From: Halorubrum halodurans
GTDB taxonomy: Archaea; Halobacteriota; Halobacteria; Halobacteriales; Haloferacaceae
Assembly (NCBI RefSeq): GCF_002252985.1
Contig: NZ_NHPJ01000114.1
Coordinates: forward strand, 1-64,000
Reading direction: 5' to 3'
DNA: 64,000 nucleotides
The position numbers and the translations under genes are program-made. Position 1 is the stretch's first letter. Every line of letters begins with the position of its first letter. The notes under the pieces are model-generated. The model was not told the origin of the DNA, did not search any database, and saw nothing but the letters and a program-made list of their open reading frames with translations. Below are positions 47,995-59,734 of this stretch, in pieces.

Positions 47995-48037
47995 ATTAAC
48001 CAACAATCTGCCGGGACATACCGAAATGTTGGTTAAT
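47995..48037. promoter_or_regulatory. Operator A: TTAACCAACA palindrome
   Basis: Arms ATTAACCAACA (47995-48005) and TGTTGGTTAAT (48027-48037), spacer 21 bp. The next gene downstream is the truncated RecA-like copy at 48181. Identical arms recur at 49867, 54105 and 59694. The arm centres are about three helical turns apart, as expected for a dimer or tetramer operator. Confidence 0.85.
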
Positions 48038-48180
48038 TCGGCGATCAAAGGCGACGGCCACCTCGGAAAGAGTCTTGGAAACAGTCTACCACTCCTCAAG
48101 ATCCGGTGACAGAGTTCGAATTGGCGTCTGGTACATTCTTTTCTGGAAGTCCGGAAGCGCCGCGCCGCCGCTTATGGAGT

Positions 48181-48357
48181 ATGGGAGACCACCCACCATC
48201 GAATCGAATGGCGGCTGACAAGCCGACACGGGGCGCTGACCGCAATCTAGGCTTGACAGATCAAGCCGATCCAGCCACGGACGAGATGCTGCTGCCGTCA
48301 CTCGACGACGTCCTGAGCGACGAGGTCGTCGACTCGGCAGCTACGTCGCCGATGTAG
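48181..48357 (+). pseudogene. Fusion scar: 5' end of RecA-like gene joined to an Orc-like 3' end
   Basis: A 58-residue frame. The first 43 residues repeat the start of the RecA-fold protein (PTRGADRN, DQADP, TDEMLLPSL). After SLDDV the match stops and the last residues, VVDSAATSP, match the end of the Orc-like protein at 42625 (LVDSAAASP), with the DNA agreeing at about 24 of 28 bases. The leader DNA also matches the one of the intact gene, including operator and a GGAAGCGCC block. It marks a deletion between an ancient RecA-like gene and an Orc gene. Confidence 0.75.
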
Positions 48358-49866: not shown

Positions 49867-49906
49867 TTAACCAACAGACTACACGGAACACCATTTTGTT
49901 GGTTAA
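49867..49906. promoter_or_regulatory. Operator B: TTAACCAACA palindrome upstream of RecA-like operon
   Basis: Arms at 49867-49876 and 49897-49906, spacer 20 bp. It lies 166 bp before the RecA-like start. Downstream, a conserved leader with CGGAAGCGCC and GCTTAT (50020-50045) matches the one before the truncated copy and, weakly, the one before the polymerase. Confidence 0.85.
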
Positions 49907-50071
49907 GTATTTGCCGCCGGGTGAATTCGGTCGCTGGAAACGTTCTCGGAAACAGTCAATCGCCCACAGAGATACGACGACTGAGGGCAGGCTACCATCT
50001 GTCTCGGCCCTTCCCTGAAACACGGAAGCGCCACGCCGCGGCTTATCGGGAATATAGACAATTAGTCGAGT

Positions 50072-51010
50072 ATGGAAGAACACTCAACGTCGAATCGGTT
50101 GGCAGTGGACCAGCCAACTCGGGGCGCAGACCGCAATCGGCCCCTTGCTGACCAGGCCGATCCGGGTACGGACGAGATGTTGTTGCCATCACTCAACGAC
50201 GGCATCACGCTGCTCGACGTCGAGGGAGGCCGCGGCGTCCCGATCCTCCAGTCGCTCGTGCTCGACCATCTCCTCCTACACGACGGGCCCGCCTTCTGGG
50301 TTGATGCGAACGGCCACGCGACAACGACAACGTTGGCTCAGATCACACCGAGCCAGCGGTTGCTCGACCGGATCCACGTCGCACGCGGATTTACCGCGTA
50401 CCAGCACTACGGCGCTGTCGACGATCTCCCGACGACAGTAAACCAGAGCATCCAGAAATCGACCGCTGTCACCGACACATCCGGTCGACAGTCAACGGTA
50501 CAAAACGAAAACTCGTCTCCACACACCCCGTCGCTCATCGTCGCACCGGCTGTCGACGCCCAGTATCGCAGCGATGACACACTCAGGGAACAGCACGCGG
50601 AAACACTCCAAGCGAGAACCCTTGCCCGACTAGCGACGTACGCCGACGGCTACGACATCCCGGTACTCGTGACTCGGAGTACAATCGATGAGTTCACAGC
50701 ACCGGTCGCGACGGCCGCTAATCATCATCTTGAGTGTGAGCAAACCCGGATGGGGCCGCGACTCGTCGGTGACGAGTTCGAGACACTCGTCTATCCCGTT
50801 GATGACGGTGCGTACTACCAGACCACGTTCGCCTACTGGCGACAGCTGCTCGCTACGCGGGCGACACAGGTCGGGCTCGAACCGGCGACACCCCCGTCGT
50901 CGACGTCGAGTCCGCCAGGTGTCGGAACAGGCGTGACCACTGACGGCGAGACGACGTCGCTCACCGCAAGTCCGCTCCTCGATGCGTGGACAGCATCTGG
51001 GGGGCGCTAA
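50072..51010 (+). CDS. RecA/RadA-fold protein with eroded Walker A
   Basis: A 312-residue protein. The layout is that of RadA/RecA: LDVEGGRGVPILQSLVLDHL at the Walker A position (no GKT), AFWVDANGHATTTTLAQI, LLDRIHVARGFTAYQHYGAV, SLIVAPAVDAQYRS for Walker B, and LATYADGYDIPVLVTRSTID, then HHLECEQTRMG. The Lys-Thr of Walker A is missing, so ATP use is doubtful. Bacterial ImuA is a RecA-fold protein without recombinase function that serves translesion synthesis. It starts a three-gene operon (gap 2 bp to the next gene, then an overlap). Function as scaffold for the polymerase is an inference. Confidence 0.7.
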   Translation: MEEHSTSNRLAVDQPTRGADRNRPLADQADPGTDEMLLPSLNDGITLLDVEGGRGVPILQSLVLDHLLLHDGPAFWVDANGHATTTTLAQITPSQRLLDRIHVARGFTAYQHYGAVDDLPTTVNQSIQKSTAVTDTSGRQSTVQNENSSPHTPSLIVAPAVDAQYRSDDTLREQHAETLQARTLARLATYADGYDIPVLVTRSTIDEFTAPVATAANHHLECEQTRMGPRLVGDEFETLVYPVDDGAYYQTTFAYWRQLLATRATQVGLEPATPPSSTSSPPGVGTGVTTDGETTSLTASPLLDAWTASGGR

Positions 51011-51012
51011 CA

Positions 51013-51330
51013 ATGGGACGCACGAACCTGACATATCGGGATGCACTGCGGGCTATCGAAGAGCGCTGGGCGGAGTTCCGTCGGGCACTCCGTCGTCACG
51101 ACCAACCACGCTTCGACCGGCTGTTCGAGTACGCCCGCGAGCACGCCGACGCGAGCGGGCTGTTGAACCACCAGAACCCGCTGGTGCCGGCGCTGTTCAG
51201 TATCGATCTCGAACAGGAGGCCACATTGGAAGACCACGAGGAACGCCTCAAAGCGCTCGAACACCGGCTCGACGAACAGCGCACCGATACACAAGTATCC
51301 GATGAAGAAACCAGCGAGGAACCCCAGTGA
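51013..51330 (+). CDS. Small coiled-coil protein of the RecA-like operon
   Basis: A 105-residue protein from ATG 51013: a basic helical part (RDALRAIEERWAEFRRALRR) followed by LFEYAREHADASGLLNHQN and a C-terminal coiled coil (EDHEERLKALEHRLDEQ) with an acidic tail. The stop overlaps the next start (GTGA). No family recognised; it may join the RecA-like and exonuclease proteins or bind DNA. Confidence 0.7.
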   Translation: MGRTNLTYRDALRAIEERWAEFRRALRRHDQPRFDRLFEYAREHADASGLLNHQNPLVPALFSIDLEQEATLEDHEERLKALEHRLDEQRTDTQVSDEETSEEPQ

Positions 51331-51983
51331 GTACACTCGCGACGATCGCATTCGACATCGAGACAACGGGGTTTTCGACAACGGACCAGCTGACCGTCGT
51401 CGGCTTCGACGCCGAGGTCGGCTCGCGAGTGTTCCTCAATACAGCCGGGAGTGCGTGTGCTTCAGATATCGAAGAACGCGTGAACGACCATCTCACTACG
51501 CCAGTGACGCTCTCTGTTCATGACGATGAGGGCGCGCTGTTGGACGCCGTCAAGACGTTCGTCGATACCACGATCGCACAGCGAGATGTCAAACTCGTAG
51601 CGTATAATGGGGAAACCTGGAAGGGCGGATTCGATCTGCCATTTCTTCGAACGCGGTTAAGTCATCATGAACGCGAGTGGCCGTTCACCGAGCTGCCGTA
51701 CATCGACGTGATGGAGGTCTTCTCCTCACGATTCAACACGAGCGAGAACAGCCTCACTGGAGTGTATGACGAGCTCGTGGCTTCCGGCCACGGTACTGTC
51801 GATCCATTTGAAGAAAGTAGCGAAGCGGTCAACGCGTGGGAGACTGGTGATTTCGAAGCGGTCGTACTCCACAACGTCGCCGATATACGGCGCACTCGAG
51901 CGCTGATGGACGTTGCGGAGCGGTACTGTTCGAAATCAGATTTTTCGATGAAGTCACTTGAACCGGTGATGAGTGGCTGGTAA
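51327..51983 (+). CDS. DEDD 3'-5' exonuclease, YprB/RNase H-like
   Basis: A 218-residue protein starting with GTG 51327. TIAFDIETTGFSTTDQLTVV gives Exo I (D and E), VKLVAYNGETWKGGFDLPFL gives Exo II (Asp after N-x-G), and VVLHNVADIRRTRAL gives Exo III. All four acidic residues are present. Such proteins remove nucleotides from 3' ends. The family-B polymerase of this island, under a copy of the same operator, has lost its own exonuclease motifs, so this gene may supply that function in trans. Confidence 0.8.
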   Translation: MSTLATIAFDIETTGFSTTDQLTVVGFDAEVGSRVFLNTAGSACASDIEERVNDHLTTPVTLSVHDDEGALLDAVKTFVDTTIAQRDVKLVAYNGETWKGGFDLPFLRTRLSHHEREWPFTELPYIDVMEVFSSRFNTSENSLTGVYDELVASGHGTVDPFEESSEAVNAWETGDFEAVVLHNVADIRRTRALMDVAERYCSKSDFSMKSLEPVMSGW

Positions 51984-52411
51984 CTTGAAATACTCTAGAT
52001 TTGATATTTTATCTTCAATCGCTCAGTACAGGGAAATTACATACTACAGCCAGTCTACTCCTTTCCCAATTCTGTTAGGAACGCCTTGCGAGATACAGAG
52101 CGTACAGTCAGCGCAGCGGCTTCGTTTCTTTCAGCTACTTTCAGCTGAATCAGCTTCTCAGTGTGGCTGCGAATTCAGCTATAGGCCATACTAACAGGAC
52201 CTAGCAGCTGGCCATCATCCAAGTGTACTATCCTCTGCTTCACTACAACAAGCCCCGTCTGAAACTGCTGTAATTGTAACGAACCCCGTGTCAATACACT
52301 ACTGACCAGAGTGCGAAATATGTACCCTGTACTGAGCGATCACTATCTCCCGAAAATTAACCTCGGTTCGCACTACATACACACCATGTAGTCTCTAAAC
52401 AGCGAGGAAGA
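51984..52411. other. Intergenic stretch before MITE
   Basis: About 430 bp with no gene recognised. AT-rich. No operator copy is seen here. Confidence 0.45.
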
Positions 52412-52755
52412 TTTGACCTCCTCCACGCCCTGAAAGACGTGGAATCCGTCCACCGGATTCGGGCTGTCGATGCCTTTTGGTTCCAACCCGCACTCAAGGG
52501 GAACCCGCAAACATACGGGCGAAACTCTCGTTTTCTCCCCTTTATAGGGCTGTGGCGCGGTCAACAACGCCCCATCGGAATCCGTGTCATTGCCGGGTGA
52601 ACCACCGCAGTTCACCGCCCCTTGTGGTTCGGGTCGGCATCTCACCGATTCCGTACTACTTACTATAACGTACATCACCGTAATAAAATTACGGAGAAAA
52701 CAAATCCGAGTGTCGCTTGACCTCCGCCTAAAGACAGAGGTATGCGCTTGTATCT
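52412..52755 (-). mobile_element. Non-autonomous IS605 derivative (MITE-like)
   Basis: About 344 bp with both ends of the element at 40401-42238: right end with a hairpin CCACG-CCCTGAAAGA-CGTGG and TTGACCTCC, and left end CCTCCGCCTAAAGACAGAGG then TATGCGCTTGT. The interior still resembles the tnpB 3' region (GGCGCGGTCAA and GTCATTGCC match GGGCGGTCAA and GTCATCGCC) but has no open frame. It probably moves by TnpA in trans. Confidence 0.8.
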
Positions 52756-52758
52756 CTA

Positions 52759-53241
52759 TCATGGCGGATTTTCTGCGTCATTGAGTCCCTCGAATGTTCC
52801 ATTGGTGTAGGCGTATCGCCACCGCTGGAGAATCGCTCGTGTCACGAGGCTTGTCTCGGACACAGATATACAGGACGGGTCAACGGGGCGGCTTGGCGCA
52901 TCGGGAGGTGAATGGAAGTGTCGGCGCGGCGCGTCGGGTTTCGGATGGCAGTCGAACCGAAAATTTCGGTCTCGGGCATCTGTGTAGTGTGCGGCGTAGT
53001 TTCCGGTGAGACTCCACCGGACGTCTATCCGGGCGGTTGCCGCCGCTCCGACGCCGTCAGATAGTTCAACCGAAAGTGTTTGTGGATTCAGCGGGTCGTC
53101 CAATGACGCGGTCTGGACCAGCGGCTCGAGGTCCGCAAACAGGTCTCGTATTTCCCGTAATGCCCCAGCGTCGATAGGACCAAATACCTCAGACTGCTCG
53201 TCTGGCTGAATATGGTGAGCGGGGTCTCCGTCGTCAGTCAT
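52759..53241 (-). CDS. DUF7718-like protein (partner of HTH gene)
   Basis: A 160-residue protein: GALREIRDLFADLEPLVQTA, then a strand-rich segment ARIDVRWSLTGNYAAHYTDA, FRFDCHPKPDAPRRHFHSPP, and LVTRAILQRWRYAYTNG near the end. It starts with an ATG that overlaps the stop of the HTH gene at 53238 (ATGA). Haloarchaea have many such two-gene pairs, which look like toxin-antitoxin modules; a DUF number is my recollection and is uncertain. The MITE sits directly downstream. Confidence 0.65.
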   Translation of the reverse strand: MTDDGDPAHHIQPDEQSEVFGPIDAGALREIRDLFADLEPLVQTASLDDPLNPQTLSVELSDGVGAAATARIDVRWSLTGNYAAHYTDARDRNFRFDCHPKPDAPRRHFHSPPDAPSRPVDPSCISVSETSLVTRAILQRWRYAYTNGTFEGLNDAENPP

Positions 53242-53849
53242 ACGACGATGGATGTATCGCCATTACCATCGTCATCTGTGTCCGTCCCGGTAAGGTGACC
53301 AGTTTGACTCACTTCACCGATCGCGAGTGTTGCCTGTGCGAGCGCGAGGTTGCGTCGCGTCGTTTGCCATTCTGTGAGGAGCGCCCCGTGGTCACCGTCG
53401 GCGTCGCGGATATCCAGTTCTCGGGCGAATTCCTCGGGCGAGTCGACACCGTATTCCTCGCGCCACGCCTGTATTTGCGCCTTCATATCAGCGATACCGG
53501 ACGCGATCTCTTCGGGCGTCCGTTCCGCGAGGATCGACTGGGCGTGTTCGGTGACGATAGCGGTTTCCGACCGTCGGTAGTGCGTCGTCTGACCATCCTG
53601 TGACGTCGTTACCTCACCAGCGCTCTCGAGCGTTCGCAGGTGCTTTCGCGCCGTGGTCGGTGAGACGCGGGCACGCTCGGCGATCTGTGCTGCAGACAGC
53701 GGATCGTACACACGAGAGATGACTTCGTACACTCGTTCAAAGGGCGTCGTCTCCTCGATCCATTCCTCTTCGACGACATCGTTCACGTCACGGTGTTCAG
53801 TGCCGCCATCCGGGCTCATTCGGTGGGGCGGGGACGGCTCCTCGGACAT
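53238..53849 (-). CDS. ArsR-like HTH regulator (DUF7342-type)
   Basis: A 203-residue protein from ATG 53849. Winged helix: FERVYEVISRVYDPLSAAQI, then AERARVSPTTARKHLRTLES and a wing with TTSQDGQTTHYRRSE. C-terminal helical part, with IADMKAQIQAWREEYGVDSP, is typical of haloarchaeal DUF7342 proteins. The partner at 52759 overlaps its stop. Likely an autoregulator of the pair. Confidence 0.75.
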   Translation of the reverse strand: MSEEPSPPHRMSPDGGTEHRDVNDVVEEEWIEETTPFERVYEVISRVYDPLSAAQIAERARVSPTTARKHLRTLESAGEVTTSQDGQTTHYRRSETAIVTEHAQSILAERTPEEIASGIADMKAQIQAWREEYGVDSPEEFARELDIRDADGDHGALLTEWQTTRRNLALAQATLAIGEVSQTGHLTGTDTDDDGNGDTSIVV

Positions 53850-53915
53850 TATGTGCCAACCAACGGGAGAGCGGTATAATAATCTGTGGGGTAGTATATT
53901 GATCACCAAATCCAA

Positions 53916-54328
53916 GAGATGAAGGACTATCCACAGCAGTCTCGCTCTTGTGTAGAGCTGCGGAAAACGATCGATCGCCGATGAGAGTTATGTGTTTGAG
54001 GAGCTGTTTGACGGCCGGTCTCGACAGAATTCACTTTGCCGAGAAAGCACACTAACAGCCGCTCTACTGCGTCTTTCCGCGTTTCTACATAAGAGCGAGC
54101 AGTCTTAACCAACAAACATCTGTGAAACGGCCGATCTGTTGGTTAACGCGCTACCGGATGTTCAGCTAACAAACTCGGAAACTATTCTGGAAGTAGGGTT
54201 AACAGAGCGAATCCGCGAGAGTCCGCTGTTCTTGTCGATACAATCTCCATTTCCCGAAATCCGGAACAGACACGCCCGCGATTATGCGAGATTTCGGTGT
54301 ATAGAATGGTAGGTGGGTGACTTACGAA
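53916..54328. other. Regulatory region before the polymerase
   Basis: Contains operator C at 54105-54146 and the conserved leader. No gene. It also carries the divergent promoter of the HTH pair on the minus strand. Confidence 0.6.
54105..54146. promoter_or_regulatory. Operator C: TTAACCAACA palindrome upstream of polymerase
   Basis: Arms at 54105-54114 and 54137-54146, spacer 22 bp. It lies about 180 bp before the polymerase start. Between them is a leader with GGAAACTATT and a CGGAACAGACACGCCCGCGATTAT-like block cut in parts (CGGAACAG at 54257, GATTATG at 54280) similar to the RecA-like leader. Confidence 0.85.
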
Positions 54329-56476
54329 ATGCCGTTCACAATTGATTTCCTTGACGATGGTCGCGTCCTCGAGTGGGAGGCGACCAACGACGGCGCGACC
54401 GCGACCGAACGCGACGACTACACGCCCCGGTTTTACGTCGCAGCACGTGACCCTGACACCGACATCGATCCCACACAACTTCGTACACAATATGAACGAC
54501 ATCCGGATGTCGTCGCAACCGAGATCGTATCCCTCCGGCCCGGCTTTCGACGGGACGAGGAGGCCGTTCTCGCGGTCGACGTTGCCCACATCGACCGCGT
54601 CACCCCACTCGCCCGGCAAGCGCGCCAGCTGTCGGCCTATCCAGTCGGGGATCTTGCCTGCTTCAACGTCGATTTCTCACGGGAGTTTCGCTACTGTCTG
54701 GAGACGAATCGCGATCCAACGCCGACGGCGGAACTGTCGACGCTCCGGCTCGGTATTCCTGTAACCGAGACAGGCCAAGACACGTACAGCGAGCTCACAA
54801 TTTCCGGCGAGACTGTAACCGGGTCAGCAGGAGACATCCTCACCACCGTTCAAGCGGCGATCGAGACACACGACCCAGACATCCTCGTCTGCTCGACGAG
54901 CGAGATCGTCCCGACGCTGTACGAGATGGCGACGGCTGCCGGCGTCGACGACTTCTCGCTGAGTCGGTGGCCGGACGTCGACTACCAGCAGCTCGCGAGC
55001 CGGTCGACGTACTCGAGCTACGGCCGCGTCGGCCACTCGCCGGCGCGGTACAACGTGCCCGGCCGCGCGATCATCGTCGAGTCAAACACGTTCTTCTACG
55101 GGGAGACAAACCTCGACGGCGTCCTCGACCTTGTGTCGCGCTCAAACAAGCCCGTCCAGGAGCTCGCGTGGGCGTCGATCGGGAACGTCCTCACTGCGAT
55201 CCAGATCTGCGAGGCCCACGACCGCGGTGTCCTCGTCCCGTGGAACTCCTGGCGACACGAGTTCTACAAGCCGATGGGGACGCTCCACGACGCCGACCGT
55301 GGCGGCTTCATCTTCGCGCCCGAGGTCGGCCTCCACGAGAACGTCCACGAACTCGACTTCTCCTCATTGTATCCGAATATCATCTGTACGCGAAACGTCT
55401 CACCGGACGTCATTCGGTGTGACTGCCACAGCGACCGCGACGACGTCCCCGGCCTCGGGTACTCAATTTGTGACGACCAAGGCTACCTCGTCGACGTCCT
55501 CCAGCCGATCATCGACGCTCGCGACGAGATCAAGGCGGCCATCCGTCGCGAGAAGGCTCGGGATGACCCCGACGAGGATCGCCTAGCGGAACTTGAGGGG
55601 CGGTCGGGCGCGCTAAAGTGGATCCTGGTCGCCTGCTTTGGCTACCAGGGGTTCAGCAACGCGAAGTTCGGCCGCATTGAGTGCCACGAAGCAATCAACG
55701 CGTTCGCTCGTGAGATCCTACTAACGGCGAAACAGCAGCTGGAGGACGGCGGCTGGCGTGTCGTCCACGGCATCGTCGACTCTATCTGGGTGACCCCGGA
55801 TCCCGACGTCGACGACGAGGGTCGCGAGGACCTCGAGACGCTCGCGACGGCAATCACGGAAGAGGTCGAAATCCGGCTCGAACACGAAGCCCACTACGAC
55901 TGGGTGGCGTTCGTGCCGCAGCGCGAGAGCGACGCCGGGGCGTTGACGAAGTACTTCGGGAAGGTCGCCGGCGACGACGAGTTCAAGATCAGGGGCATCG
56001 AAGCCCGGCAGCGCTCGACCCCGCCGTTCATCGAGGCCGTCCAGCGGGACTGTCTCGACCGGCTCGATGCCACACGGTCACCGGACGCCGTACTCGACTG
56101 TCTCCAAGACGCAATCAAGCGGCTCCACGCTGGAACGGTACCGGTCGAGCAGCTCGTCGAACGGAATCGGGTCTCCAAGCCGCTGGAAGGCTACTCACAG
56201 AATACCCAAAACGTGGCCGCGTTGAAACGGGCTCGCGAGCAGGACCTCGCTATTCACCCCGGTCAGGACATCGAGTACGTGGTCGTCGACGACGAGAAAA
56301 GCTCGCGAGAGCGAGTCGCGTTAGCCCACGAGGAGATAGCGTCGTACGATGCGTCGTACTACGAGACGGAACTCGTCAGAGCTGTCGAGAGTGTGCTGGC
56401 ACCGCTTGGCTGGGATCGGACGGAGATTCAACAAGAGCTTGCAGGGACACGTGAGCCAGAGCTAACCGATTTCTAG
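54329..56476 (+). CDS. polB: Family-B DNA polymerase (plasmid type, altered active site)
   Basis: A 715-residue polymerase from ATG 54329; a Shine-Dalgarno-like AGGTGGGTGA lies just upstream, and GTG 54317 is in frame. Motif A: HELDFSSLYPNIICTRN. Motif B: ALKWILVACFGYQGFSNAKF (Lys kept, the Asn of K-x3-N-S-x-YG not). Motif C: VVHGIVDSIWV, where the family has YGDTDS, so the first Asp is Ile and the second Asp is kept. KxRG: FKIRGIEARQRSTPPF. The exonuclease part lacks Exo I (D-x-E) and Exo II, e.g. ILVCSTSEIVPTLYEM. Archaeal PolB2 proteins are known for changed active-site residues; whether this one polymerises is open. It is preceded by operator C. Confidence 0.9.
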   Translation: MPFTIDFLDDGRVLEWEATNDGATATERDDYTPRFYVAARDPDTDIDPTQLRTQYERHPDVVATEIVSLRPGFRRDEEAVLAVDVAHIDRVTPLARQARQLSAYPVGDLACFNVDFSREFRYCLETNRDPTPTAELSTLRLGIPVTETGQDTYSELTISGETVTGSAGDILTTVQAAIETHDPDILVCSTSEIVPTLYEMATAAGVDDFSLSRWPDVDYQQLASRSTYSSYGRVGHSPARYNVPGRAIIVESNTFFYGETNLDGVLDLVSRSNKPVQELAWASIGNVLTAIQICEAHDRGVLVPWNSWRHEFYKPMGTLHDADRGGFIFAPEVGLHENVHELDFSSLYPNIICTRNVSPDVIRCDCHSDRDDVPGLGYSICDDQGYLVDVLQPIIDARDEIKAAIRREKARDDPDEDRLAELEGRSGALKWILVACFGYQGFSNAKFGRIECHEAINAFAREILLTAKQQLEDGGWRVVHGIVDSIWVTPDPDVDDEGREDLETLATAITEEVEIRLEHEAHYDWVAFVPQRESDAGALTKYFGKVAGDDEFKIRGIEARQRSTPPFIEAVQRDCLDRLDATRSPDAVLDCLQDAIKRLHAGTVPVEQLVERNRVSKPLEGYSQNTQNVAALKRAREQDLAIHPGQDIEYVVVDDEKSSRERVALAHEEIASYDASYYETELVRAVESVLAPLGWDRTEIQQELAGTREPELTDF

Positions 56477-57097
56477 TGACCGATCAGCGAATAGTTTCTA
56501 ACAGAGAACCACGGTCACACTCCCTCCCCCCGTCATCGATGTGTAAAACCATGAGAGGAGGGAGGGGGGTGACGAGCGGAGAACGGCGAAAACCGGCGAT
56601 GAGACCACAAACACGAAGCAGGACGCCTCAGCGGTCGAATCTATATTCTCGTAAGCAATGCATATTGTCTGACGAAGTTTTATATATAGTGCGTTATAAC
56701 CGGACCCGTACTGGAATTAAATGTGAAGGTTAGGAGAAGTGAAACTTCGACTAACCGAACACGGATGGCTCCACCACGCCTCTCGTCTTCATACACGATC
56801 TCTCTTGTTTTCAACCGTCTCGTGGTGTCAAACCCGACTTTCATGATTTGCTCCACGTTAGTTCCCCCTTCCACCCCCTTCTGTTTACACATCGATGATG
56901 GGGGGTGGGGGTCAAGAGACTTCGTGGCTTGATCTCATTTCCAGTCCGTTAGGAGGATCCGGTGTGGAAGCGGCTGGTTCATGTTCTCTGACTCACCGAT
57001 CACAGTTCAGGACTCTCTCGAATTCTGTCCCGCTCCTATCTCGACTTTACACATCGAACACGGGGGGTGTGTTCTCCATCGGATGCTCGACCGGACC
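56477..57097. repeat. Downstream ORB-type repeats of origin 2
   Basis: Between the polymerase and the second Orc gene. CCCCCGTCATCGATGTGTAA type boxes: one at about 56526-56546 (+), and inverted TTTACACATCGATGATGGGG at 56884, TTTACACATCGAACACGGGG at 57046. No convincing gene; the small frames here read through the repeats. The same boxes occur on the other side of the Orc gene. Confidence 0.8.
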
Positions 57098-58552
57098 TCA
57101 CTCCTCGTGAAATTCTTTCAGTTGAGCATTCACGACTGAACTCAGGAGTTCTCCCTGCTGGGCTATTCCTTCCAGGCGTGTATCATCGACGATCCGGGTC
57201 ATCATCGCTTCAGGATCGCCCGTGAATGTGAACTCCATATACATCCCGCCACCTCGTCCGCGGCTTTTCCGGGATGTTGAAATCAACCCGTACGTCGAGA
57301 GTTCTTTGACATATTTGACGTACGTCTCACGAGTCATCTGATCTGCATCGAGCTCGTTCGTCACCCACTGATAGACTTTGAATCCAACCGGGCTTGGGAC
57401 GGAGCTTCCCGTCCGGCTCGAGTGATACGCAACGGCTGCAGTTGCGTACAGTGAAATCTTCTTTTGTGTCGTAAGCCCCTCAACGAGCTTCAGCGACCGG
57501 TCTTTGTCAATCTCCTCCTGAGATTCTCGGACGTGGTCCTCCGTGACCACTTCATCTCCCCGTTCGTCTGCGAGGTCACCAGCCCCGCGGAACAGGTCGA
57601 TCGCCTTCCGTGCGTCACCGTGACTTTGTGCAGCGAACGCCGCCACGAGTGGAATCACGTCGTCCTCGAGAGCATGTTGACGGAACGCATCGCGTCGATT
57701 TTCGAGAATTTCGCGCAGCTGGTTTGCGTCGTAGTCAGGGAAATAGATGTCACGTGGATTGAATGAACTCTCGGCACGCCCGTCGATATCTTCCATGAAT
57801 TTTGGATCGTTCGTCAGCGCTGCGACGGACACGCGACCTTCGATTTCGTTCGTGTTGCTCGCACGCGATAGCTGATAGAGAAGCTTCGAGTATGCGGGTT
57901 CGTCGTTTTCGCGTCGACCGACCAAGAGATCGATTTCGTCGAGAATGAAGATAACCGAATCGTAGTACTCGTTGATGAGTTCGTACAGACGTCGGTACTT
58001 ACGCTTCGTCGATACGCCGGTCTCTGGAACTCCGACTTCAGTACCAACGTCCTGGGCGACAGTTTGGACGAGTTCGTAGACGGCCTGATCGAGCGTATTG
58101 ATTGGTTGGCAGTTGATATCGACAACGCCGAAACGTTCGCCTTTGGATTGACAGAGCTCGATGATCTGTTGCGTGACGGCCCCGATGATGAGTGACTTAC
58201 CTGTCCCTGCGGGACCGTACAGCAGCATATTCGGTGGTCGATTTCCTTGGAGAGTCGGCTTCAGAAATGAGACGACGGACTCGAGCTGGTCGTCACGGCC
58301 GACGATTCGCTCCTCATCGATAATCGTGTCAGGCTCAACGAGGTCCCGGTTGACAAACACCGATGCCTCCCCTTCATCATCGAGCATATCACGGATCGAC
58401 CGCTGAGCGGTCTCTTCGGTCGATCCCTGATTTTGGCTTGCGTCTCCGGCAGCATCCTCACGGGCGGATTCTAACTGCTGTCCATCCGATGTAGAACTAG
58501 TTTCTTCATCAAGGGTGGATTGGTCCGCCCCTTCTTGATCACTACCGGCCAT
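57098..58552 (-). CDS. orc1: Orc1/Cdc6 replication initiator (origin 2)
   Basis: A 484-residue initiator. Walker A is MLLYGPAGTGKSLIIGAV near 109, Walker B VIFILDEIDLLVG near 205, then IYFPDYDANQLREILENR, and a winged helix near the C-terminus (KKISLYATAAVAYHSSRTG ... GFKVYQWV). The first 75 residues are an acidic, Ser/Gln/Glu-rich tail. It has ORB-type repeats on both sides (56526-57071 and 58692-59315), a different family from the iterons of origin 1. It is related to the 32232 initiator (both with a long tail and the same order of motifs) but not identical. Confidence 0.95.
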   Translation of the reverse strand: MAGSDQEGADQSTLDEETSSTSDGQQLESAREDAAGDASQNQGSTEETAQRSIRDMLDDEGEASVFVNRDLVEPDTIIDEERIVGRDDQLESVVSFLKPTLQGNRPPNMLLYGPAGTGKSLIIGAVTQQIIELCQSKGERFGVVDINCQPINTLDQAVYELVQTVAQDVGTEVGVPETGVSTKRKYRRLYELINEYYDSVIFILDEIDLLVGRRENDEPAYSKLLYQLSRASNTNEIEGRVSVAALTNDPKFMEDIDGRAESSFNPRDIYFPDYDANQLREILENRRDAFRQHALEDDVIPLVAAFAAQSHGDARKAIDLFRGAGDLADERGDEVVTEDHVRESQEEIDKDRSLKLVEGLTTQKKISLYATAAVAYHSSRTGSSVPSPVGFKVYQWVTNELDADQMTRETYVKYVKELSTYGLISTSRKSRGRGGGMYMEFTFTGDPEAMMTRIVDDTRLEGIAQQGELLSSVVNAQLKEFHEE

Positions 58553-58679: not shown

Positions 58680-59320
58680 ATCCGGTGGGAGACCCCCCGT
58701 CATCGATGTGTAACGCAAAATCGGCGGCCCTCATGTGAATTTGCGCATCTGTGATTGGACTTAGTTGTTCCACCCCCATCATCGAAGTGCAAGCCGCACG
58801 TCTGACACCCCCCGTCATCGAAGTGTAAACGCAGGGTCGACCATCCCCCCGTCATCGAAGTGAAAATCGGTTCAGTCTCCGACTCTCTTGATGTTCACCG
58901 TTCGGATTTCATTTTGCACACAGGGTGTTCCCGCTCGACTTGTTACTCAATTCATCTCTTACACGGAGTCCAGTACGTCTGTGTCATCCCACCGATTGTA
59001 GGCTATATTCAATATACAAAACCAGCCTAATAACTCTCTACCGTCGGAATACGGCACATTTACACTTTGCACACGGGGTGTGTGATGAGAACCTATCAGT
59101 GGATACACTCGTGATCAGGGGTGTGGTCTGTCTCAAATAGAAAAACCATGCTTCAACTGTGGAACCCTGTTCGACTGTTCGTGCCTGAAAACGGCTCTAT
59201 CGACTATTAACGGCTTAATCTAATCTCAAATTCTTTCTCGTTCCTACTGTTTTCACTCTGGACGAGGGGTGTGTAGTCACCACTTTTCCAAGTGCACCAA
59301 AATCAAATAGCACACGGGGT
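58680..59320. other. Replication origin 2: ORB repeats upstream of orc1
   Basis: Boxes with a C-run, CATCGA and a GTGTAA/GTGAAA end: 58694 (CCCCCCGTCATCGATGTGTA), 58772 (CACCCCCATCATCGAAGTGC), 58807 (ACCCCCCGTCATCGAAGTGT) and 58844 (CCCCCCGTCATCGAAGTGAA). Inverted ORB-like boxes with a G-run follow: TTTTGCACACAGGGTGT near 58912, TTTACACTTTGCACACGGGG at 59060, GACGAGGGGTGTG near 59260 and GCACACGGGGTGTGAG near 59311. The AT-rich stretch between about 58935 and 59055 could be the unwinding site. Confidence 0.85.
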
Positions 59321-59353: not shown

Positions 59354-59677
59354 TCATTCGTCCGGATTGACTGGCCGTTTATATTTGGACGTGACCTTGT
59401 CCCCCTCTCTCCACTGCCAGTAGTAGTAGCGGTTGTCGTTAATCTCCTTGATCGTGATCGTGGCCTTCGCCGGGACGTCGTCCGGCAGATCGTCGGGACG
59501 TTCTTCGATTTCGCTTTCATCTGAGTCCTCTTCGAGACGGGCCTCGCGAGCTTTGTGCTCAGCTAGCTCTTCAGCGTAGCGGGCAACGTGCTGGAGCTGC
59601 TCAGAAGAGGACTCGTTGAGCGTATTGACGAGGTCTGTCGGGAGTTCCGCCGGCGGCGTCGGTGGCTCGTAGGACAT
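59354..59677 (-). CDS. DUF6788-like small protein
   Basis: A 107-residue protein from ATG 59677 (MSYEPPTPPAELPTDLVNTL). A helical, charged middle (VARYAEELAEHKAREARLEE) leads to a C-terminal part KEINDNRYYYWQWREGDKV with SKYKRPV, which resembles the DUF6788 pattern. The function is unknown. Operator D lies 17 bp upstream of the start, so it is closer to this gene than the other three copies are to theirs. Confidence 0.7.
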   Translation of the reverse strand: MSYEPPTPPAELPTDLVNTLNESSSEQLQHVARYAEELAEHKAREARLEEDSDESEIEERPDDLPDDVPAKATITIKEINDNRYYYWQWREGDKVTSKYKRPVNPDE

Positions 59678-59693: not shown

Positions 59694-59734
59694 TTAACCA
59701 ACAAAGACCGTATCGGCATAGATTTGTTGGTTAA
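59694..59734. promoter_or_regulatory. Operator D: TTAACCAACA palindrome upstream of DUF6788-like gene
   Basis: Arms at 59694-59703 and 59725-59734, spacer 21 bp. It sits directly before ATG 59677, so it probably covers the promoter or leader of this gene. Confidence 0.85.

Follow-up and report, generated by a model that had tools for sequence, protein, structure and literature searches.

A probable plasmid-borne PolB2 mutasome module of Halorubrum halodurans with an optional exonuclease gene and a promoter shared by two transcription units

The stretch of Halorubrum halodurans DNA analysed here (NZ_NHPJ01000114.1, positions 1 to 64,000; hereafter the window, which denotes the whole 64,000 nucleotides) encodes a family-B DNA polymerase, PolB2, together with an inactivated RadA (iRadA), a small helical partner protein (PPB2) and a DEDD exonuclease. 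The region lies on contig C43 of the draft genome and its closest plasmid relatives are from Halorubrum. Our analysis makes it probable that these genes form a plasmid-borne PolB2 mutasome module in an exonuclease-bearing variant, arranged as two transcription units that have the same promoter and may be switched together. The parts are inherited together, share promoters and most likely act as a translesion polymerase of several subunits. Makarova 2014 (PMC4104785) reported an operon in which PolB2 is joined by arCOG07300 and an inactivated RadA, gave haloarchaeal examples and suggested a role in damage repair. PPB2 and iRadA were named, the heteropentamer was modelled (40 models) and the term PolB2 mutasome was used by Timinskas 2025 (PMC11791011). 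An earlier note on this DNA, made from the sequence alone, had proposed an independent archaeal counterpart of the bacterial mutasome. That proposal was right in kind and is already published for iRadA-PPB2-PolB2; the analogy is sound but not new, because the operon was reported in 2014 and the mutasome modelled in 2025.

A family profile of 34 iRadA sequences matched RadA/Rad51 proteins in the PDB, with the best match to 4a6p (E=7.8e-11). The alignment with RadA begins behind the Walker A region, where iRadA has GGRGVPILQSL and no GKT/S, with GGRGVP instead of GxGKT; iRadA proteins of the plasmid branch have GxRGVPxLQSL at this position. The N-terminus of PPB2 (MGRTNLTYRDAL / MGRTNLTYRDALRAIEERW) contains the MGRT motif, and (M/V/L)GRT is kept in nearly all intact PPB2 homologues. 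PolB2 scored 1420 bits against NF004418. Its PolC motif is HGIVDS, whereas an alignment showed YGDTDS in both of the genome's other PolBs; the first PolC Asp is lost, and HxxxD is the form of PolC stated for PolB2 (PMC8764526). The DIE of Exo I is gone and the exonuclease motifs are lost, while the motif A Asp is retained (ELDFSSLYPN). In the published PolB2 mutasome a D(K/R) loop of PolB2 would contact PPB2; here a DR dipeptide (HDADRGG) ahead of motif A was spotted by eye only. The only polymerase family found was family B (PF00136), in the polymerase itself, and the PPB2 gene matched no polymerase. The exonuclease matched PF13482 RNase_H_2 (E=6.9e-9), and D10, E12, D103 and D186 were invariant in seven homologues, with HxxxD at the third motif; its profile had no match at E≤1 in the PDB. 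The earlier note had described a RecA-fold protein without Walker A, a small coiled-coil protein, an intact DEDD exonuclease and a family-B polymerase with an eroded exonuclease, and all four proteins were confirmed at the coordinates given. Besides the PolB on contig C68, the genome has one more family-B polymerase, its third, on contig C85 (G000:C85:12201-13247, L002), in which YGDTDS and the Exo I motif are intact.

The iRadA, PPB2 and exonuclease genes lie head to tail, with a 2-bp gap between iRadA and PPB2 and a 4-bp overlap between PPB2 and the exonuclease. PolB2 is set apart from these three by an intervening minus-strand DUF7342/TumE-like gene pair and is served by a promoter of its own. 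The iRadA, PPB2 and PolB2 genes are on the same strand and in the same order as in relatives, in most of which they are contiguous, and in relatives free of the insert the gene order is plain iRadA-PPB2-PolB2. Of 117 genomes sampled from the order, 61 had PolB2 (NF004418 above the cut-off). We compared 41 haloarchaeal PolB2 loci, made up of 40 fetched loci and the window, whose shared ancestry means that the counts are not independent events; the genes of relatives were called by a simple codon-usage script and their start positions are approximate. iRadA was present in 37 and PPB2 in 39 of these loci, and the exonuclease in seven, each time directly behind PPB2. The co-occurrence of four genes expected by the earlier note thus held for iRadA and PPB2 and mostly failed for the exonuclease. 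Among the plasmid-borne exonuclease homologues with >60% identity, at least 13 of 15 were about 320–450 bp downstream of iRadA, which is the PPB2 slot, and a 14th lay behind a 105-aa gene that it overlapped by 4 bp, a PPB2-like arrangement. The exonuclease gene, third and optional in the haloarchaeal PolB2 module, is new relative to the published operon. In viral contigs, no iRadA was confirmed.

The promoters of iRadA contain a TTCC-N8-9-GGAA dyad fused to a long B recognition element (BRE)/TATA-like sequence, with the consensus TTYCCTGAAAYNCGGAAGNGACACGCCGCGGCTTATCGGG, and the detached PolB2 has its own copy of this proximal element. Only three matches were found in the genome itself, at the iRadA duplicate described below, iRadA and PolB2. 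In 23 of the 41 loci the element stood at iRadA, at PolB2 or at both, 29 of its 32 matches in the loci being at iRadA or PolB2 starts, and a scan of 117 genomes, compared by position, placed most matches with ≤1 mismatch at PolB2 loci. A palindrome, together with this second shared element beside the TATA box, precedes both transcription units of the window. The palindrome was found in the module promoter of 14 of the 41 loci compared to 3.2% of random 390-bp windows. Its distance from the proximal element was mostly either about 110 bp or about 118 bp, in a list where some entries are one site in overlapping loci. Judged from the DNA sequence, this arrangement is strong evidence that the iRadA and PolB2 units are co-regulated, as the earlier note had supposed in placing the set under palindromic control; the shared architecture also partly reflects common descent of the promoters. 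Since both units carry the same promoter, a common factor could switch them on together. The two cis elements appear to be so far undescribed and were not found mentioned in PMC4104785 or PMC11791011.

The palindrome is a perfect 10-bp inverted repeat, TTAACCAACA-N20..22-TGTTGGTTAA, found before the iRadA duplicate (47996), iRadA (49867), PolB2 (54105) and a gene encoding a 107-aa protein that we have designated CL0 (59694). The genome contained nine copies and none of the reversed control. In the order, 180 of 293 genomes contained it, with up to 32 copies, and the reversed control was matched in two genomes only. Exact copies were present in at least 118 stretches of public genomes and in 50 viral-contig stretches (IMG/VR). 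The first set of fetched DNA held 102 exact sites and 10 with one mismatch. Conservation stops sharply at the arms, spacers are nearly all 20–23 bp, and the arms are 31–32 bp apart centre to centre, about three helical turns. All but five of 291 unique sites were outside predicted genes, and those five were in viral contigs. The palindrome was mostly 15–19 bp from the start of CL0 (35 cases), mostly 84–109 bp from HVO_2833-type and DUF7342 helix-turn-helix (HTH) genes, 191–272 bp (mostly 191–201 bp) from iRadA, 142–189 bp from PolB2, 75–272 bp from DUF6610, 54–55 bp from a SWIM-like gene and 71 bp from an AbiEi-type antitoxin gene. It was also present at the start of SRAP (SOS-response-associated, abasic-site protection) in five loci, at 57–68 bp in four of them. 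Orc1/Cdc6, ArdC-like, RNase H_2 and virus genes also adjoin it, and on some plasmids SRAP and a second RNase H_2 protein are encoded upstream of the PolB2 operon.

Palindromic control is not specific to repair: because the palindrome also stands before SRAP, toxin-antitoxin, unknown plasmid genes and virus genes, it is a plasmid/virus element and not a private damage box. It is better read as a putative operator serving haloarchaeal mobile elements at large, with the mutasome module among its subscribers. A search of the literature for its sequence gave irrelevant matches alone among the papers listed (20 of 58), in a partial coverage in which absence is no proof of novelty. More tentatively, the palindrome may be a strict, undescribed operator of one regulator that coordinates stress- or entry-induced PolB2 mutasome, SRAP, exonuclease, replication and toxin-antitoxin genes, a proposal that we consider possible, if doubtful.

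CL0 is a suggestive, though not established, candidate for the regulator of the palindrome. It is widespread on haloarchaeal plasmids, mostly 70–97% identical, and has no family in Pfam or NCBIfam. Its predicted structure is a helical hairpin with a three-stranded sheet, and the model (mean predicted local distance difference test score 74) had no significant fold match. Genomes with the palindrome had an orthologue (E<1e-30) in 141 of 180 cases and those free of it in 1 of 113, a comparison confounded because CL0 brings its own palindrome. Three genomes with 13–16 palindrome sites (G020, G091 and G241) had a remote CL0 only.

Compared to the published PolB2 mutasome, the module has the same three components, signature motifs, iRadA-PPB2-PolB2 order and nearby orc1/cdc6, with SRAP nearby in relatives. 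It differs in the exonuclease behind PPB2, in the detached PolB2 with a second promoter copy and in its plasmid location. PolB2 shares the HxxxD PolC motif and the absence of proofreading with Dpo2 of Sulfolobus islandicus, which is damage-inducible and responsible for targeted mutagenesis (Feng et al., PMC7390963) and acts as an extender polymerase (PMC8764526). Control appears to differ, as the damage response of Sulfolobus is mediated by Orc1-2 at an ANTTTC element (PMC9738581); by inspection ANTTTC was not seen in the two element sequences of the window, which does have an orc1/cdc6 gene nearby. A short promoter motif proposed for ultraviolet (UV)-induced genes of Halobacterium, TTTCACTTTCA (PMC2556686), is of another sequence and belongs to other genes (radA1, top6B, vng17 and vng280), and by inspection it was not seen in the elements of the window either.

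The logic of a multisubunit translesion polymerase is shared with E. coli Pol V (UmuD'2C-RecA) and eukaryotic Pol zeta, the latter likewise being a proofreading-dead family B extender, whereas their partner proteins are of other families and control in E. coli is by LexA. Pol V and Pol zeta, not ImuABC, are the published yardstick for the PolB2 mutasome. The earlier note had drawn its parallel with bacterial ImuA-ImuB-DnaE2. Both indeed combine three parts, a RecA-fold protein with a small partner and an error-prone polymerase, under a common operator, but the polymerase families and the regulator are unrelated: the polymerase is of family B, PPB2 is a small helical protein and not related to polymerases, and there is no Y-family ImuB-like subunit or C-family DnaE2. 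None of the ten neighbourhood genes scanned reached the LexA model cut-off, and the operators at the module are TTAACCAACA/TGTTGGTTAA and TTCC-N8-9-GGAA in place of a LexA operator. Homology was therefore rejected; the idea that the module belongs to ImuA-ImuB-DnaE2, or is its direct counterpart in Archaea, is refuted at the family level and hardly credible otherwise, and a loose functional analogy is left.

The sequences establish what the proteins are, how their genes are linked, the promoter plan common to both units and the palindrome family. By analogy with the Sulfolobus work and the published models, the module would have polymerase activity, assemble as a complex and be induced by damage. 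PolB2, lacking proofreading of its own, would extend primer ends past lesions or mismatches, and the inactive Rad51-like iRadA may dock it to DNA or to the fork. The MGRT arm of a PPB2 trimer would enter the cleft between PolB2 and iRadA, where published models place this N-terminus (PMC11791011). We infer that the separate DEDD exonuclease, whose translation is presumably coupled to that of PPB2, acts in trans to trim or edit ends, which is the least certain step. The iRadA-PPB2-exonuclease and PolB2 genes would have become two transcription units, each keeping the same promoter, whose plan is a TTCC-N8-9-GGAA dyad immediately before BRE/TATA, with a palindrome roughly 90–119 bp further upstream. 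A common factor could then act on both units at once. The palindrome seems to be a wider plasmid/virus operator, being found also ahead of SRAP, toxin-antitoxin, HTH and unknown genes.

Several points weigh against a translesion module of this kind. The exonuclease was missing from 34 of the 41 PolB2 loci, and the three remote homologues that were inspected (43–46%) were located elsewhere. For these two reasons a role as core subunit was rejected, and the exonuclease is regarded as an accessory of one branch. Nor do repair genes predominate among the other neighbours of the palindrome. The literature, as far as its partial coverage goes, yielded no data on expression, activity or interactions of haloarchaeal PolB2; no SOS-like response was reported in H. 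salinarum NRC-1 (PMC1224876, PMC2556686), and polB2 of H. volcanii is deletable (PMC7776575). On pNRC200 of H. salinarum NRC-1 (L321), an insertion with an AAACT target duplication seems to divide the CL0/HTH palindrome, no iRadA is annotated beside polB2, and the exonuclease is present only as a fragment. The negative UV arrays of NRC-1 are not decisive, because the palindrome looks split and the PolB2 module is broken there. One of the remote exonuclease homologues, from halophilic archaeon DL31 (L328:2979-4672), lies directly behind a gene that looks CRISPR RAMP-like by eye (Halar_0239/0240).

The module might instead serve the establishment and replication of plasmids and viruses and not a cellular damage response, with the palindrome marking a mobile-element regulon active on DNA entry or re-initiation and PolB2 copying or gap-filling incoming or plasmid DNA with Orc1/Cdc6. 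We consider this a possible but less likely explanation. Many of the listed palindrome sites are on plasmid-sized contigs, the 50 IMG/VR stretches fit it, orc1/cdc6 usually adjoins PolB2 loci, and the neighbours of the palindrome include Orc1/Cdc6, ArdC-like, AbiEi, DUF6610, SWIM-like and ParA-like genes. However, SRAP is among the genes with a palindrome at the start, palindrome-free PolB2 operons are found on chromosome-sized contigs (e.g. L097, L103 and L104), and the proximal element hardly occurs outside the PolB2 module, which therefore has its own control. If the palindromes were recombination or cassette-boundary sites, their position near the module would reflect cassette shuffling and not control. 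The almost invariant arms (102 exact sites versus 10 with one mismatch), palindromes on both sides of the operon or of PolB2 in L078, L081, L083 and L089, and palindromes between some convergent genes agree with this. It is nevertheless improbable, as the distance to given gene families is conserved to a few bp (for CL0, SWIM-like and iRadA as above, for HTH mostly 84–89 bp and for SRAP 57 bp), orthologous promoters have similar spacer sequences, the CL0 palindrome is directly upstream of the gene, and arm spacing of about three helical turns is that expected for a same-face binder.

Loss of the catalytic Asp, Walker A and the Exo motifs could also mean that PolB2 and iRadA are decaying, inactive remnants on plasmids, and the truncated iRadA duplicate (48181-48357), the broken copies in pNRC200 and PPB2 remnants in L073 and L084 point the same way. 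Long intact frames across many families, retention of the motif A Asp, the PPB2 GRT and the DEDD residues of the exonuclease, and strongly kept promoters make this very unlikely, and the PolB2 of Sulfolobus is active with the same PolC loss (PMC8764526). The reading that we prefer is still the exonuclease-bearing PolB2 mutasome, whose features in the window are collected in Table 1.

Table 1. Positions of the PolB2 module, its cis elements and neighbouring features in the window
Feature	Position (bp)	Strand	Remarks
Palindrome copy A	47996-48036		TTAACCAACA-N21-TGTTGGTTAA; upstream of truncated iRadA duplicate
Truncated duplicate of iRadA 5′-end	48181-48357	+	Own promoter element copy, GGAA at 48153
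Palindrome copy B	49867-49906		Upstream of iRadA; 119 bp from palindrome end to proximal-element GGAA
Proximal promoter element of iRadA, TTCCCTGAAACACGGAAGCGCCACGCCGCGGCTTAT	50011-50046	+	TTCC..GGAA dyad, then BRE/TATA-like CTTAT
iRadA	50072-51010	+	Rad51/RadA fold; without Walker A and without the helical N-terminal domain of RadA
PPB2 (arCOG07300 family)	51013-51330	+	Small helical partner; N-terminal MGRT
DEDD exonuclease (RNase_H_2, PF13482)	51327-51983	+	D10/E12/D103/D186 intact; start overlaps PPB2 stop
TumE-like protein (weak match)	52759-53241	-	Insert between exonuclease and PolB2; outside core module
DUF7342 winged-helix (wHTH) protein	53238-53849	-	Partner of TumE-like gene; insert
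Palindrome copy C	54105-54146		Upstream of PolB2; 118 bp from palindrome end to proximal-element GGAA
Second proximal promoter element copy, TTTCCCGAAATCCGGAACAGACACGCCCGCGATTAT	54250-54285	+	In front of PolB2
PolB2 family-B polymerase	54329-56476	+	ATG 54329, conserved MPF; GTG 54317 also possible
Orc1/Cdc6 replication initiator	57098-58552	-	Adjoins PolB2; common polB2 neighbour
CL0, 107-aa protein	59354-59677	-	Start 16-19 bp from palindrome D; candidate regulator or target
Palindrome copy D	59694-59734		Directly upstream of CL0, overlapping its likely core promoter

Among the other features of the region, the duplicate of the iRadA 5′-end, which has its own palindrome and promoter element, is followed by an HTH and nucleotidyltransferase-like gene pair. 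The minus-strand DUF7342 and TumE-like pair (52759-53849) resembles a toxin-antitoxin pair, and in Haloplanus rubicundus (L331) the same slot is occupied by genes annotated as DUF6516 and a transcriptional regulator. Repeats of the type CCCCGTCATCGATGTGTAA flank orc1/cdc6, at about 56530-57080 and 58690-58860, and are possibly the origin boxes of this plasmid.

Haloarchaea have been reported without an SOS-like response, and this locus offers two concrete cis elements that bear on the control of a damage-tolerance polymerase, the first almost confined to the PolB2 module, the second common to many plasmid and virus genes. The variant with a separate exonuclease suggests that PolB2 may regain editing. 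If the palindrome is a global operator of mobile elements, then mutagenesis, plasmid spread and toxin-antitoxin control would be joined in one circuit, and the coordinated programme tentatively proposed above would, if true, give haloarchaea their first SOS-like regulon, one carried on mobile elements.

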